Position numbers and translations under genes: made by a program. Positions 15,050-25,792 of a stretch of DNA of 35,611 nt are shown here, one piece after another. Below the pieces are notes generated by a model. The model made no database searches. It saw only the letters and a program-made list of their open reading frames with translations, and was not told where the DNA came from. The stretch lies in contig JAKBJF010000003.1 in NCBI GenBank assembly GCA_021836125.1, positions 1 to 35,611 on the forward strand, written 5' to 3'. The DNA is from Nanobdellota archaeon. GTDB taxonomy: Archaea > Nanobdellota > Nanobdellia > Parvarchaeales > Parvarchaeaceae. Each line of letters begins with the position of its first letter. The stretch's first letter is position 1.

Positions 15050-16738
15050 CTATATCTTATAATAAGACCCGTTAATTTTTTCCGCGGATTGTAAATGCAG
15101 GGCATCAAGCAATTTATCCGTCTGGGATTCCTCTCCATCCTTGGGAAGCCTTATCTCTATGAATTTGCCTATGTGTTTTCTTTCCGGACCGTCTATCCTG
15201 TAAACGTCGTCCAATGTGAATATCATCCCATTGAGACTATACACTTCCCGCGTCTTTGATATTTGACTATACACGGAATAAAGCCTTGATATGAGTTCCT
15301 TCTCTATTCTGCCGTTTATTTCAAACTCAAACTTCGGTCTTTCCGAAGAGCCGTCCTTTTTTGGGCCTTTGTAAGTCAAATAACAACTGTCGCTTTCGTG
15401 TCTTACCCTTAGTATTTCGTCCTCGGATGTAAACCCTTTGTCTTTTGGCACGTAATAGTCGTCGTTCTGCCGAAGTGTCGCTATATGTTCTGCTCCGAGA
15501 AGTATTATGTTTTTCTGCACATCCTTGTCGTCCATCATCCTGAGCTTTATCTGTTTTTCCCAACTTCTCAAGGATCTGGTCTCTATTTCTGGTTTATATT
15601 CGTTACTGATAAGGATGTCGGCGTTTTCAGCCGTCGGTTTTATGTATTTATCGTACATAGGTTCGACCGTGCTCAGCGAATACTCCAAGGTGTACGCTGG
15701 TGACCAGCTTGCTCTTTCAACATCCCTGAACATTTTCCTGAGTAGCCTGCCGTGCGAACCGGTGTCAACAAATATTTTCAAGTCTCCGACACCTTCCAGT
15801 TCCGGGCTAAGGGCAAAAAGCCCTTCAACTATTATGAGCTTGTTCGGCGAAAACTCAGAATAACCTGTCCGTTCTCCAATCTTGAAGCTATAGTTCGGTG
15901 CCATTATTTTCCTGCCTTCAGAAAGCTCTTTTATCTGGACTTTAAGAAGCTCCAAGTCCAATGCCCTTGGCTCATCAAAGTTCAAACTGTGCTCCGATAT
16001 ATATTTAGTGCCGCGATAATAGTCATCCATTGAAAGTATCGCAGAAGAATCTGGGAACATGTTTTTAATCCCTCTAGCTATTGCTGTAGTTTTACCGGAA
16101 GCAGAACCACCTGCAACCATCACTATGGTCGGCTTATCCTTAGATGAAAGAATACGTTCAATGCTCTCCTTCGCCTCTTTAAGCCCGGATTCTTTATCTG
16201 AGAGCTCAAGGCGTAATTTTTTTGGGATACCACTAGTAGCCAAACTAACGTTCTTGTATCGGCTCGCGTTTGTTACTTCGACTCCGAACCATGGTTGAAC
16301 TGGGAATTTTCCGCTTTCTGCAGTGGATGGAAATTCTATCTCCACGGTATTCAAGCCGTTCAGTTTACCAGAATAAACGTCGATGTATGCTGCTATTCCC
16401 TTAACACCTATCTTGTATCGGCGTTTTTTTATGCTAGCTTTTGAAAGCTCCAACAAAGATTCAAAATCCGACCCCGTTATCCTCATTTCTCTTTCTATTC
16501 TATCTATGCCGCTGCCGAGTTTCTCGGTTATGAAAAAATCGTTATTTTCGTGTCTTATTCTGGCTTCTCGGCCATCGTCTATAATCAAATAATGTTGCTC
16601 TATTTCATACTCTTCCGCATTTTCTAAAGAAGGGAGAGTCGATAAGAGAAATTTTCTTTCTATCTCGTGTTTATTCAAAGAATCGCTAGCTGATAACTGA
16701 TGCAAAAGCTCATTCAACCTTACCTTTGGGGCAGTCAC
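15050..16738 (-). CDS. CYTH - uridine-kinase-like - CYTH three-domain protein
   Basis: 562 residues in three domains. Residues 24-165 are a complete CYTH (triphosphate tunnel) domain: EIERK at 25-29 (E-x-E-x-K), R58-R60-R62, K73, the RIEREMRI strand, KKRR at 104-107, D120, E133/E135 and a closing EVTNASRYKN. Residues 204-390 are a P-loop kinase like uridine kinase: GGSASGKTT at 210-218, MDDYYRG with D238/D239, FDEPRALD, and VEGLFAL with E305. Residues 405-562 are a second tunnel domain with R444-R446, K457, FEFEI, K495/R497, D510 and E528, but no E-x-E-x-K. Plant TTM1/2 have kinase-CYTH; a CYTH on both sides is unusual. The start is a GTG at 16738, with a TATA box 24 nt upstream. It probably works on nucleotide or inorganic polyphosphate; the exact reaction is unknown. 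Confidence 0.85.
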   Translation of the reverse strand: MTAPKVRLNELLHQLSASDSLNKHEIERKFLLSTLPSLENAEEYEIEQHYLIIDDGREARIRHENNDFFITEKLGSGIDRIEREMRITGSDFESLLELSKASIKKRRYKIGVKGIAAYIDVYSGKLNGLNTVEIEFPSTAESGKFPVQPWFGVEVTNASRYKNVSLATSGIPKKLRLELSDKESGLKEAKESIERILSSKDKPTIVMVAGGSASGKTTAIARGIKNMFPDSSAILSMDDYYRGTKYISEHSLNFDEPRALDLELLKVQIKELSEGRKIMAPNYSFKIGERTGYSEFSPNKLIIVEGLFALSPELEGVGDLKIFVDTGSHGRLLRKMFRDVERASWSPAYTLEYSLSTVEPMYDKYIKPTAENADILISNEYKPEIETRSLRSWEKQIKLRMMDDKDVQKNIILLGAEHIATLRQNDDYYVPKDKGFTSEDEILRVRHESDSCYLTYKGPKKDGSSERPKFEFEINGRIEKELISRLYSVYSQISKTREVYSLNGMIFTLDDVYRIDGPERKHIGKFIEIRLPKDGEESQTDKLLDALHLQSAEKINGSYYKI

Positions 16739-16758
16739 ACCGATTATATGCAGTGAGC

Positions 16759-16766
16759 ATATAAAA
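16759..16766 (-). promoter_or_regulatory. TATA box for the CYTH-kinase-CYTH gene
   Basis: TTTTATAT on the minus strand, centred about 24 nt before the GTG start at 16738. It suggests the gene can be transcribed apart from its upstream partner and supports the GTG as a leaderless start. Confidence 0.5.
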
Positions 16767-16801
16767 ACCTAAGAAAAGAAGCTTAATTATTATTTTTGTG
16801 C

Positions 16802-18253
16802 CTATGCGCCATTTTTAATCGATGAAAGCCATTTTGCCTTTGTAAGAGTCGTGGGCTTAAGGTGGGGATACCTTTTCAGTATTCCATTTGTGATTCGGCC
16901 TATACCATCGACAGCCGCATCCTCCTCCTTTTTCGAAGGCGAAAGAAGCGTTCTTTCGACTTCTATCTGGAACAAGTGTCTGCGCATATTGCTCGAATCG
17001 TCCATAGACACGCAATAAGTACTTCCATTTGAATCTTCCACGATGAAATATTTGCGTCTCTTTATTATAGTGTTTGATATGCTCCTGAGAAGATCGGTAG
17101 CATCGCTTGAGCGGCCACTCTTCTCTTTTATTTCTGTCCTTTTCAGGATACAGCCCAAGCCAAAATCATCGTTCATAATTTGTTCGCCGGATTTTGTGGT
17201 CGTTCTCTTCATACTGGTCCTTAATACGCGACCCGCTTCATTAAAATCATAAACGTGCACCGCGGAACTCTCGAGTGTCCACGGAAGTCTACCGCTAACA
17301 TTGAAACCACTAAAAACTCCATTATAAAAATCGTATTTTATCCTATGAAAGATAAATTGGTCCTTCCTGTTTAAAGACAATTTTGCTTCTATCTCTGTGT
17401 CAGATTCTTCAACGGGCATTTTTGCCGCTTCTCTTAGATACTTGCCAAGTTTTTTATATCCAGCGTATTTTTTTCCTATTTCTATCATTGCGCCATTATC
17501 GCTTAGTAATTCGAGCAGGCTGTGCGTCGCCTCGGAATCAATTTTATCAAGCGGCATTTTTATCTCTATTCTCGCCTTATTCTCTTTTCCTATGCTATTC
17601 CCATTCAGACCGTTGCGTAACCAGAAGAACTCGGTATTTCTATCCACTGTAATACGTATACTATTGTCTGCTTTTGCCTCAAACTGCACGCGGTTATAAC
17701 TGTCAGCAGTGTGTGGTGCTAGCGGCAAAGTTAAGGTTAGATTACACGGATTACACTTTGCGACAGACAAAGATTCGCCAAGCGAAAGCTCCTCTCTTTC
17801 TTTTATTGATGAACCATCCCCTTCGCTGTACTTTGTCTCGAAGAGCCATTTTCCATAAGGGCGTAATTTAAAGGAATGTGGAAGCGTATAAGAAGAGTAT
17901 CTTCTTGCGCGCATAGATAGACCAAACGGCAATTCATGTTCTAGGTTATTGAAATAAATAGTGTGGTTAAAATCTTTGGCGACATACTTCTCTTCGGCAA
18001 AATCGTTTAACTCGGATAGGAGACTAGATATTTTGGACTTGCTCACTGAATAACCCCATTCGATCCTAGCGCCCTGATCCGCCGTATTTTGCATTAATTG
18101 TTGAAGAAAACAATTAGTATAAAAACGTTTTATGCTTGAATTTACACGCGATACGCCTAGACGCTTCTTTCTCGCATCAGTCTTCTCTTTCTCTTCCTGT
18201 CGAGCATTTTCTTCTTTCTCGTCTTCCAGCGATCCTTGTGATACTTTTTCCAA
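16802..18253 (-). CDS. Double triphosphate-tunnel protein (VTC-like + CYTH-like)
   Basis: 483 residues. After a strongly charged N terminus (about 1-35), residues 60-275 resemble the VTC polyphosphate-polymerase tunnel domain: TIYFNN, MRARRY (R115, R117, R118), LFETKYS (E139, K141), KEREEL, ITVDRNTEFF, RIEIKMP and a closing YKKLGKY. Residues 284-440 look like a CYTH domain with EIEAK at 287-291, RVLR, LKRTEIK, a basic IIKRRKY patch, MDDS and FQIEVERT. There is no SPX domain and no membrane segment. The domain calls rest on motif spacing read by eye; the first is less certain than the second. The start is a TTG; an in-frame TAA lies two codons upstream. The gene precedes the CYTH-kinase-CYTH gene by 63 bp on the same strand, which suggests a joint role. 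Confidence 0.7.
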   Translation of the reverse strand: MEKVSQGSLEDEKEENARQEEKEKTDARKKRLGVSRVNSSIKRFYTNCFLQQLMQNTADQGARIEWGYSVSKSKISSLLSELNDFAEEKYVAKDFNHTIYFNNLEHELPFGLSMRARRYSSYTLPHSFKLRPYGKWLFETKYSEGDGSSIKEREELSLGESLSVAKCNPCNLTLTLPLAPHTADSYNRVQFEAKADNSIRITVDRNTEFFWLRNGLNGNSIGKENKARIEIKMPLDKIDSEATHSLLELLSDNGAMIEIGKKYAGYKKLGKYLREAAKMPVEESDTEIEAKLSLNRKDQFIFHRIKYDFYNGVFSGFNVSGRLPWTLESSAVHVYDFNEAGRVLRTSMKRTTTKSGEQIMNDDFGLGCILKRTEIKEKSGRSSDATDLLRSISNTIIKRRKYFIVEDSNGSTYCVSMDDSSNMRRHLFQIEVERTLLSPSKKEEDAAVDGIGRITNGILKRYPHLKPTTLTKAKWLSSIKNGA

Positions 18254-18373
18254 TTTTTAGAGCTTCTCTTCATATGTTTTATTTTTAGGAGCCATGCTAA
18301 TTTATACCTTTGCTTATAACCTCAATTTGCCTGAGTTGAAAGACTTTTAAAGTTGTAGATAATAATAAGTTTT

Positions 18374-23446: not shown

Positions 23447-25792
23447 TTAAGGAAATGCCGCGTAAGCGAATTTCACTGATGGCATGATCCCATTCGGGGG
23501 TGTGTTCCTTAATCTGGTCCAGCTTATATTAACTTGGCTGTTCATCTCGTTGGATAGGCTAAAACCTATAGAAGACGACAATGAAGGAAGATTCGTAAGT
23601 ATTGATGAAACTTTCGAGGTATAATTGTTAAGATAATAGTCTGCCTGTGCTGTGGAGAAGCCGATTGAATAATTATTATAAGAGTTTCCGGTATAGCTTC
23701 CGATACATGATGAAGATGTTGAGCCTACTTTTTCTGAAGATGCGCACATGCTTGAATTACTTAAATCTGCCAGTCCTACGCCGTTTCCAGTGTTCAGCCA
23801 TGTTGTTGGTGCTGTATCTGTAAAGCCCCATCTGAATGTATTTGGATTGCCCGGCTGGAAAACATAAGCGACTATGCTGGCCGAACCGCTTCCGCTAAGA
23901 CTTGCAGTTACACTGTAACTGTTTACCGCTTGGCTCGGGCAAACTGCTATGTAAGCACTTTCGTATGTCTCAGACCCGTTTATGTATTGCTGTGCTGTGC
24001 AACCGGCTGGTACGCTGACACTGGACAACCCATAAAAACCGACTGCAATTGCTATCACTACAAATGAATTTGGTGAAGACACCGAATAGGAGAGTGATAA
24101 AGATGAGGAAGTTCTTGAGCCGCTATTTGTTCCTTGGATCGAATATGGTGTTGAATTATCGAAACCGATGCTGGATAATACTATCTGTTGACCGGTCGCT
24201 GACCCAGCTACTGTTGAACATGGAGAACCTGTCTGATGCCCGATTGAGGTATAATTATTACCATCGTGCTCATCCTGTGTCCAAGATACCGAAGTAATTG
24301 GTGCGTAGGGACTTGCACTTCCACCGCTAACTGCGGCGACGCACAGGTATGAATCATACCCATAGGGGTTAGTAACGGAAAGAGACGTAGACGTACTTGT
24401 ACCTGATGCGCTATGGGGTACGTATATGCCGGAATAGGTTGTTCCTTTCTCATTAGTGTCTGCGGTCAGATTTGACGTTAGTTCTGACGATGGCACGTTC
24501 GAATAAACCCACGTCTCAAATTTCTTGCCCAAATTATAACCACCGCCTGTCAACGACAAACCATTGTTGACGATTATGTCTGAAAGACTTCCCGATGAAC
24601 CGTTGCTTCCGTAAGAAGCCCATTTTGTCGCATTAAGCGACGAACCCGCAAAGTTGTCATAGAAGTTGAAGATATTCGCACCATCATCGTATTGTCCATA
24701 TGTACCTGAAAGTGAAGGCGCTTCGCCCGTATTTACCTTGTTCATACTATTTACAAGGCTCATGTTGAACGCCATATACACAGTTAGGTTGCTGTTTGCA
24801 GGTATAGGGGGTATTTTTAGCCAATATAAAGTGCGCTGCGATGTCTTGCTGTTGCCACTCTCAAGCCAAGAAGGTACAATTGAATAGTTCTTAAAAAGAA
24901 ATACTATATTGTTTAGATTAGAAGCTTCCCAGTTTTGGTAGTTGGAAGCATTAAAGACAAGAAGTTGTTGAAAAGGAGATGCCGTTGGTTTTGATTGTTT
25001 ATTGGAAATGGTCATGTTGAGCATGCAGAGGGTCTGGGCCTTTAAGAATACTACCTTAAGCACCGAGCCCGCATTAAGATTTCCAGACTGCGAGGAGGGG
25101 GCCTTTGTGGTATTGCAAGATCCGGAAACATTGTATATCTTTTTAACTGAATAGCCATAATTTCCGACGCTGTTATAAAACACTATTTGGTCAGAAGTCG
25201 AATTCTCAGAGTTCGAACCGAGCGTCGCGTACCACCTCGTGCCGGATGGCAGACCGCTTTCAGTGATTACTGTTATAAGCTCTGATGATTCTAGCGGTAT
25301 ATTCCCCTGTGTAAGCGTCAAAAATATACTGCCATAAGATACTGCCGTTTCTGCGGCAAGACCGTTAAAATATGAATAGTCTATATAAACGTTCGTATAA
25401 ACAGGAGAAGATAAAGATACGGACGCGTAGCATACAGTCTGTTGGCCAGGATATAATGAAGTATAAGCACATGACATAGAATTGTTCGCCGAATTTATAT
25501 TAAAAATCACGGAGGATAGGTTCGCTTTGCTGTTTCCGTTGTTAACGACCACTATTGCCATCTCGGTGGAATTTGCATACGCAGACGTAACTTCCATATT
25601 GGAGGAAAAACCGGATATCTGCGTGTTTTTAGACACGAAAAAATTGAAATTAAGAATGCCTGTATAAAAAAGAAGCGCAAGGACCAGACCTACGATAAGG
25701 AATACCCAGCCATATGATATCATGAACTCTACAGATGATTGACCAGTTTTGTAAAGTCTGCTTAGTTTCGTTATTCCGCCGTAAAGTCGCAT
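23447..25792 (-). CDS. Large pilin-like surface protein with DUF2341-type domain
   Basis: 781 residues. The N terminus has a class III (archaeal type IV pilin) signal: KTGQSSVEFM with G17, Q18, S20 and E22, then a hydrophobic helix (about 26-46), so cleavage before Q18 by a prepilin peptidase is expected. Then come a beta-rich region of about 130 residues, an ESGLPSGTRWYATLG motif near 178-192, and from about 258 a stretch (MTISNKQSKPTASPFQQLLVF, LYWLKIPPIPANSNLTVYM) typical of DUF2341 domains. The rest is a serine-, glycine- and asparagine-rich beta region with many N-x-S/T sequons. Far larger than ordinary pilins, it is probably an exposed adhesin-like subunit. It follows a KaiC-like ATPase gene by 9 bp. 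Confidence 0.85.
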   Translation of the reverse strand: MRLYGGITKLSRLYKTGQSSVEFMISYGWVFLIVGLVLALLFYTGILNFNFFVSKNTQISGFSSNMEVTSAYANSTEMAIVVVNNGNSKANLSSVIFNINSANNSMSCAYTSLYPGQQTVCYASVSLSSPVYTNVYIDYSYFNGLAAETAVSYGSIFLTLTQGNIPLESSELITVITESGLPSGTRWYATLGSNSENSTSDQIVFYNSVGNYGYSVKKIYNVSGSCNTTKAPSSQSGNLNAGSVLKVVFLKAQTLCMLNMTISNKQSKPTASPFQQLLVFNASNYQNWEASNLNNIVFLFKNYSIVPSWLESGNSKTSQRTLYWLKIPPIPANSNLTVYMAFNMSLVNSMNKVNTGEAPSLSGTYGQYDDGANIFNFYDNFAGSSLNATKWASYGSNGSSGSLSDIIVNNGLSLTGGGYNLGKKFETWVYSNVPSSELTSNLTADTNEKGTTYSGIYVPHSASGTSTSTSLSVTNPYGYDSYLCVAAVSGGSASPYAPITSVSWTQDEHDGNNYTSIGHQTGSPCSTVAGSATGQQIVLSSIGFDNSTPYSIQGTNSGSRTSSSLSLSYSVSSPNSFVVIAIAVGFYGLSSVSVPAGCTAQQYINGSETYESAYIAVCPSQAVNSYSVTASLSGSGSASIVAYVFQPGNPNTFRWGFTDTAPTTWLNTGNGVGLADLSNSSMCASSEKVGSTSSSCIGSYTGNSYNNYSIGFSTAQADYYLNNYTSKVSSILTNLPSLSSSIGFSLSNEMNSQVNISWTRLRNTPPNGIMPSVKFAYAAFP

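Follow-up and report, generated by a model that had tools for sequence, protein, structure and literature searches.

Two adjacent genes of an uncultured archaeon encode a VTC–CYTH protein and a CYTH–kinase–CYTH protein with predicted roles in poly- and tripolyphosphate metabolism

Introduction

Vtc4, the yeast VTC polymerase (PF09359), has a tunnel fold marked by Y-x-R, R-(I/V)-T/S-x-D and E-x-K motifs, and changing its R264/R266/E426 inactivates the polymerase (PMC9911596). Martinez et al. described how the four glutamates of tripolyphosphatases sit where Vtc4 has basic, chain-exit residues, and how Vtc4 retains the first metal site only (PMC4641920). NeuTTM (NE1496) is a stand-alone inorganic tripolyphosphatase (PMC8615392), and SaTTM (Saci_0718) is an archaeal tripolyphosphatase. 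The Arabidopsis pyrophosphatases TTM1 and TTM2 join a uridine-kinase domain to a CYTH domain; reportedly, the signature motifs are missing from them and they prefer pyrophosphate (PMC8233210; PMC8615392). How archaea that lack PPK1 synthesize polyphosphate has been an open question (PMC6864096, PMC6355812, PMC7831078). Here we describe two adjacent genes, A and B, in a 35,611-nucleotide stretch of DNA (contig JAKBJF010000003.1, hereafter the window) from an uncultured archaeon of the order Parvarchaeales, and we compare their products with these systems.

The main value of the locus lies in protein B, a member of a soluble archaeal VTC–CYTH family that gene context ties to polyphosphate. Within this one protein, polyphosphate synthesis and breakdown could be set against each other, and the presence of a soluble archaeal Vtc4-type tunnel beside CHAD, Ppx and SixA genes is relevant to how the eukaryotic VTC polymerase arose. 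Our overall reading, to which we give an even chance, is that A and B, neighbours by chance, each act as an enzyme of its own in the metabolism of inorganic poly- and tripolyphosphate, with activities as suggested below for each tunnel.

Results

Protein B joins a VTC-type tunnel to a hydrolase-type tunnel

B belongs to an undescribed family of archaeal proteins with two triphosphate tunnels in each chain. The AlphaFold model, built from 17 sequences, scores well (predicted local distance difference test (pLDDT) 88.3; predicted template modelling score (pTM) 0.89) and shows two sets of strands one after the other, each with about eight. Those modelled in the second half span residues 233–240, 274–284, 297–306, 316–325, 342–354, 359–368 and 373–383. 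A Foldseek search with this model returned VTC structures at ranks 1–13, followed by ygiF, HpAC1, AtTTM3 and RNA triphosphatases. Both the domain search and the model describe a protein made of the two tunnels only, with no SPX or transmembrane domain.

Sequence comparisons agree for the first half. B exceeds the Pfam VTC cut-off (25.8 versus 23 bits), Pfam VTC is matched by 16 of the 17 family members (best 1.4e-13), and the B profile matches Vtc3, Vtc2 and Vtc4 (5e-8 to 1e-3). The single B sequence found no match in the PDB by phmmer.

The residues that line the two tunnels are of different kinds. In the first tunnel they are R10, R62, R64, K88, K98, R100, R135, R147, E177, K179, K208 and K209, and from position 62 (either R or K) onwards these are conserved in essentially all 17 members. 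We mapped the acidic-patch positions of the tunnels of both A and B onto the published tripolyphosphatase–Vtc4 scheme (PMC4641920). By this mapping the first-tunnel positions of B (R10, E12, R100 and K179) are basic, as in Vtc4, at three of four, with E12 the exception, and E177 is kept. The corresponding positions of the second tunnel (E234, E236, E321 and E380) are all acidic, as in a hydrolase; the second tunnel also has the motif E234-x-E236-x-K238 together with K301, R319, E321, K348, D365, E378 and E380. By motif pattern, R62, R64 and E177 are candidate counterparts of R264, R266 and E426 of Vtc4, in a stretch that lies outside the printed Vtc4 alignment. The first half of B resembles Vtc4 in its tunnel fold, in its three motifs and in the basic residues that replace the acids of hydrolases. 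B differs from Vtc4 in having no SPX and no membrane domain, in carrying a second, hydrolase-type tunnel, and at the position of Lys200, which is Arg in the B family and Gly in the window species.

The original prediction, made from the letters of the window alone, had described four triphosphate-tunnel domains around a uridine-kinase-like core, with a VTC-like first half in B. The motifs that it named in B (YFNN, ETK, KER, EIK, KKLGKY and EIEAK) and in A (EIERK at 25–29 and GGSASGKTT at 210–218) are all in place. The four-tunnel arrangement is supported by Pfam, by the NeuTTM match of A and by the B model. The VTC likeness is borne out by the Pfam and Vtc profile matches and by the top Foldseek ranks, and the structure prediction and fold search proposed for B returned two tunnels, VTC first and other tunnel folds after it.

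The B model was also compared with a library of viral structures (BFVD), where it matched SPX/VTC, CYTH and RNA-triphosphatase proteins. A strong structural match there is the PolyPPase_VTC_like protein (A0A6J5KVM0, 538 aa) of an uncultured Caudovirales phage. Phages may carry enzymes related to B.

B probably starts downstream of a conserved small reading frame

The start first proposed for B, a TTG at 18253, proved to be wrong. Homologues start at or after residue 44, and the first 33 residues of the TTG-started protein overlap a 38-residue Lys/Arg-rich open reading frame (ORF) in another frame. Because of these homologue starts, and because the upstream extension overlaps a conserved ORF, the most likely start is the ATG at 18094 (Table 1), 53 codons further in. 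The small ORF encodes MKRSSKNWKKYHKDRWKTRKKKMLDRKRKRRLMRERSV and is nearly unchanged at matching places in two further genomes (G014 and G019). It was missed by the ORF listing for the window, which had an 80-residue minimum. The peptide has no Pfam match above a cut-off; we take it to resemble ribosomal protein eL41.

Relatives of B lie among polyphosphate genes

A scan of GTDB genomes for B yielded 17 loci. They are distributed among DPANN archaea (Aenigmatarchaeota, Jingweiarchaeum, Woesearchaeota and others) and one Bathyarchaeota/Crenarchaeota lineage, and in the family tree the Bathyarchaeota clade stands apart from long DPANN branches.

It is in the Bathyarchaeota lineage that the neighbourhood of B is most informative. 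A CHAD gene lies convergently 3' of B at every one of the 11 loci. In all nine loci of sufficient length, CHAD is followed by Ppx/GppA and then SixA, and in most of these nine a separate CYTH gene comes after SixA. CHAD binds polyphosphate (PMC6537752). Across the Bathyarchaeota class, B is present in 12 of 201 genomes; Ppx occurs in 12/12 of the carriers and in 19/189 of the genomes without B (Fisher p 2e-11, for carriers that form one lineage and are not independent). PPK1 was found in none of the 22 A- or B-bearing genomes tested, while 7 of 14 controls were positive. A separate crenarchaeal kinase family was reportedly described in 2026 (Hofmann et al.). The polyphosphate context suggested originally is supported by the neighbours of B homologues in Bathyarchaeota.

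The same three genes, CHAD, Ppx and SixA, form clusters in Sulfolobales (PMC10892726). The published figure legend lists a dTMP-kinase-like gene in these clusters and does not list a VTC–CYTH gene. In contrast to the Sulfolobales clusters, the window itself contains no CHAD, Ppx or SixA.

Protein A places a NeuTTM-type tunnel before a TTM1-like kinase–CYTH unit

The N-terminal tunnel of A aligns with NeuTTM from end to end. In a phmmer search, residues 24–169 matched NE1496 (2fbl) with an E-value of 3.7e-20, collinear across the whole domain, and all of the catalytic motifs are present (E25/E27/K29, R60/R62, K73, E82/E84, K105, R107 and E133/E135). The acidic patch is complete and of hydrolase type (E25, E27, E82 and E135), and the first-tunnel residues are conserved in all three homologues that possess the domain. 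A structure model of A, made from two near-identical sequences and hence a shallow alignment, reached a pLDDT of 31.5; by homology to solved structures, we infer that this region forms an eight-stranded closed tunnel. Whereas NeuTTM stands alone, the tunnel of A is fused to a kinase and to another CYTH domain.

The C-terminal 370 residues have the domain order of TTM1 and TTM2. Residues 205–378 match Pfam PRK (4.7e-25), and the best PDB match in a single-sequence search is plant TTM1 (7z66, E 1.6e-28), which is nearer to the A kinase than is any uridine kinase. The kinase core (P-loop, DDYY and RxxR) is fully conserved among homologues. The domain does not reach the curated equivalog cut-offs for udk (138.9 versus 180 bits and 120.2 versus 220.3 bits), and the His of the uridine-kinase motif is missing, the sequence being YSFKIGER versus YDFRAHTR. 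The A profile matches TTM1 over positions 154–486, covering kinase and tunnel and running past the end of the kinase. The likeness to TTM1 and TTM2 that had been noted at the outset is supported by this collinear match and by the rank of 7z66.

The last tunnel is a CYTH domain (residues 409–559 to Pfam CYTH, 1.2e-21; 77.8 bits against a cut-off of 23.2), although its signature is altered. Its E-x-E-x-K motif is absent: the sequence reads E394-K-Q-I-K398, and all homologues have E/D-x-Q-x-K. The patch positions are E394, Q396, K469 and R530, so that three of the four acids are gone, while the basic tunnel residues and the metal-site E528 are retained. In a profile comparison the domain aligns over its whole length with SaTTM (7ns8, E 1e-20), and the last tunnel alone matches TTM1 at only 0.9. 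The ExExK and E-x-E of SaTTM are ExQxK and E-x-R in A. The loss of the CYTH signature motifs is shared with TTM1 and TTM2 (PMC8233210). A differs from the plant proteins in three respects: it has an extra N-terminal tunnel of active type, its last tunnel is nearer to SaTTM than to TTM1, and by eye it has no C-terminal membrane segment. Judged by residues, hydrolase-type and altered tunnels are both present in the two proteins, in keeping with the mixture of catalytic and regulatory domains proposed originally.

Five further genomes of the order carry A, and they belong to the genus of the window species (the conspecific G013, and G029, G006, G017 and G021), and in a 237-genome sample of the phylum the three-domain form occurs only in this genus. 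The homologue in G021 (L017:10126-11355, minus strand) consists of kinase and CYTH in the order known from TTM1 and TTM2, the first tunnel being absent. A genome of the phylum Aenigmatarchaeota encodes a 673-aa protein (L072:1474-3495, minus strand) in which kinase and CYTH stand behind a membrane domain that we take to be cation-efflux-like. Since the N-terminal partners differ among these relatives, the kinase–CYTH unit is the stable part of A. The domain order of plant TTM1 and TTM2 is therefore also present in DPANN archaea, with N-terminal partners swapped.

The A–B pair is confined to one species

A and B lie on the minus strand, with a ferredoxin gene on one side and a divergent gene for a membrane protein on the other. 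The window is part of a 60-kb contig from a genome of about 0.8 Mb that is 66% complete. A second genome of the species, Nanoarchaeota archaeon YF1.bin65 (G013; 78% complete), shows the genes in the same arrangement, S8e and ThrRS included, on a 316-kb contig, and on this ground we reject assembly error or contamination. In both genomes A and B are adjacent on the same strand with 63 bases between them.

This pairing does not extend further. A and B occur together only in the window species, and within the order a full-length B was found only in the conspecific besides the window. A is present without B in G029, G006, G017 and G021, and four other DPANN genomes have B with no A nearby or elsewhere in the genome. 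In G029 the same two genes, for a ferredoxin and a metallo-beta-lactamase, flank A, and another gene occupies the place of B; we take this gene to be dCTP-deaminase-like.

The upstream sequences point the same way. The element TTTTTATA lies 22–31 bases upstream of the start codons of both A and B and is enriched in the window (14 observed, 5.5 expected). The presence of one TATA-like box per gene fits separate leaderless messages. TATA-like elements stand about 25–30 bases before the start codons of most genes in the window, which suggests that window genes mostly give leaderless messages.

A and B had been put forward as one module, and a survey of archaeal genomes had been proposed to see whether the pair is conserved. 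The survey found no conservation outside the species. Given that each gene is found without the other and has a TATA-like box of its own, we reject a conserved A–B operon and regard the adjacency of A and B as most probably incidental.

Discussion

The domain order, the homologies, the tunnel fold of B, the residue patterns and the surroundings of B homologues are established here; from them we infer the most likely activity of each domain, including the direction of the first B tunnel and the role of the kinase and last tunnel of A. The first tunnel of B, which is Vtc4-type and basic with a single metal-site glutamate, would move the terminal phosphate of a nucleoside triphosphate (NTP) onto a phosphate chain, or do the reverse. 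The second tunnel, with its acidic two-metal patch, would cleave short chains or triphosphate ends. The first tunnel of A would hydrolyse tripolyphosphate, and the kinase and second tunnel of A may handle nucleotides or pyrophosphate, either by binding and processing them or as sensors. A more specific proposal for B, which we offer tentatively, is that of a soluble, membrane-free prokaryotic relative of the yeast polymerase: a Vtc4-type polymerase tunnel coupled in one chain to a trimming hydrolase tunnel, with CHAD, Ppx and SixA as its partners in PPK1-lacking Bathyarchaeota.

Several findings weigh against these assignments, chiefly the Gly found at B position 14, the PPK2 genes of Bathyarchaeota and the absence of further polyphosphate genes in the window organism, and some of them favour other accounts. 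Position 14 of B, which aligns with Vtc4 Lys200, is Gly in the window species and Arg in 13/13 of the other members that have the position; this replacement of an invariant Arg may weaken the first tunnel here. E236 of the second tunnel is K in the main Bathyarchaeota clade. No family member has a Pfam CYTH match in its second half and hhalign gave no signal, so the CYTH assignment of this half is drawn from the model and the residue pattern. All but one of the 11 genomes tested from the Bathyarchaeota lineage carry PPK2, a possible maker of the polymer. No Ppx, CHAD or PPK1 was found in the window genome or in any other DPANN carrier of A or B, and PPK2 in these carriers amounts to one match below the cut-off, in G182. 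For the window organism, whose two genomes are 66% and 78% complete, there is therefore no independent evidence of polyphosphate metabolism. The Gly at position 14 and the availability of PPK2 would both suit a B that is only a hydrolase or a binding protein, its VTC-like first tunnel being non-catalytic like Vtc2 and Vtc3 and its second tunnel alone active. The best profile and structure matches of B include Vtc3 and Vtc2, the companions of catalytic Vtc4, and the second tunnel has the acidic patch expected of a hydrolase. We nevertheless find this account rather doubtful, as the remaining first-tunnel residues are held in essentially all 17 members, beyond the needs of a scaffold.

Protein A could likewise be read as a nucleotide kinase under the control of its two tunnels, which would sense polyphosphate or NTPs. 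Its fully conserved kinase core would fit, as would the second tunnel, which has kept its basic lining and lost most of its acids in every homologue, and the variable fusion partners, with the first tunnel missing from the G021 protein and a cation-efflux-like membrane domain in its place in the L072 protein. A complete hydrolase site in the first tunnel is unexpected for a pure sensor, however, and the kinase falls below the udk cut-offs and is without the uridine-kinase His; on balance we consider regulation of this kind somewhat unlikely. Quite improbable, in our judgement, is a functional A–B pair that makes and breaks polyphosphate: the close spacing on one strand in both genomes of the species speaks for it, but the four genomes with A alone, the four DPANN genomes with B alone and the separate TATA-like boxes speak against it. 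Finally, the tunnels might act on nucleic-acid or thiamine triphosphates, because RNA 5'-triphosphatases, thiamine triphosphatase and class IV adenylate cyclases share the fold. The nearest matches are instead the inorganic-phosphate enzymes NeuTTM, SaTTM and VTC, the curated equivalog cut-off for class IV adenylate cyclase is not reached (CyaB; 49.1 versus 57.95 bits), and B homologues have polyphosphate genes as neighbours, which makes such substrates very unlikely.

Other features of the window

Table 1. Positions of the described features (window coordinates unless a locus is named; residue numbers of B refer to the corrected start)
Feature	Position	Strand	Basis
Protein A, 562 aa, CYTH – uridine-kinase-fold P-loop domain – CYTH	15050..16738	-	Pfam, PDB matches; homologues in G013, G029, G006, G017, G021
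A C-terminal CYTH tunnel, residues 392-562	15053..15565	-	Pfam CYTH; SaTTM 7ns8 profile match; residue table
A uridine-kinase/phosphoribulokinase-fold domain, residues 200-390	15569..16141	-	Pfam PRK; plant TTM1 7z66
A P-loop GGSASGKTT, residues 210-218	16085..16111	-	Sequence; invariant P-loop residues among homologues
A N-terminal tunnel, NeuTTM-type, residues 24-170	16229..16669	-	phmmer to 2fbl/NE1496; conserved residues
A E-x-E-x-K motif, EIERK, residues 25-29	16652..16666	-	Sequence
TATA-like box of A, 22-29 bases upstream of GTG start	16760..16767	-	Motif search
Protein B, most likely start, 430 aa, VTC-type and CYTH-type tunnels	16802..18094	-	Pfam, homologue alignment, AlphaFold, Foldseek
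B C-terminal CYTH-type tunnel, residues 230-427	16814..17407	-	Model strands, conservation
B second-tunnel E-x-E-x-K motif, EIEAK	17381..17395	-	Sequence, conservation
B N-terminal VTC-type tunnel, residues 10-222	17429..18067	-	Profile matches to Vtc3/Vtc2/Vtc4; Foldseek; residue table
TATA-like box of B, 24-31 bases upstream of ATG	18118..18125	-	Motif search
Conserved 38-aa basic ORF, in another frame than the extended B start	18157..18273	-	Peptide recurs in G014, G019
CHAD–Ppx–SixA and separate CYTH gene beside B	L050:8327-12193		Matching loci L041-L049, L053

Elsewhere in the window, a gene at 23447-25792 (minus strand) encodes a 781-aa protein with a DUF2341 domain. This protein is 86% identical to its conspecific copy, compared with 97–100% for its neighbours; its lower identity marks it as fast-changing or repeat-containing.

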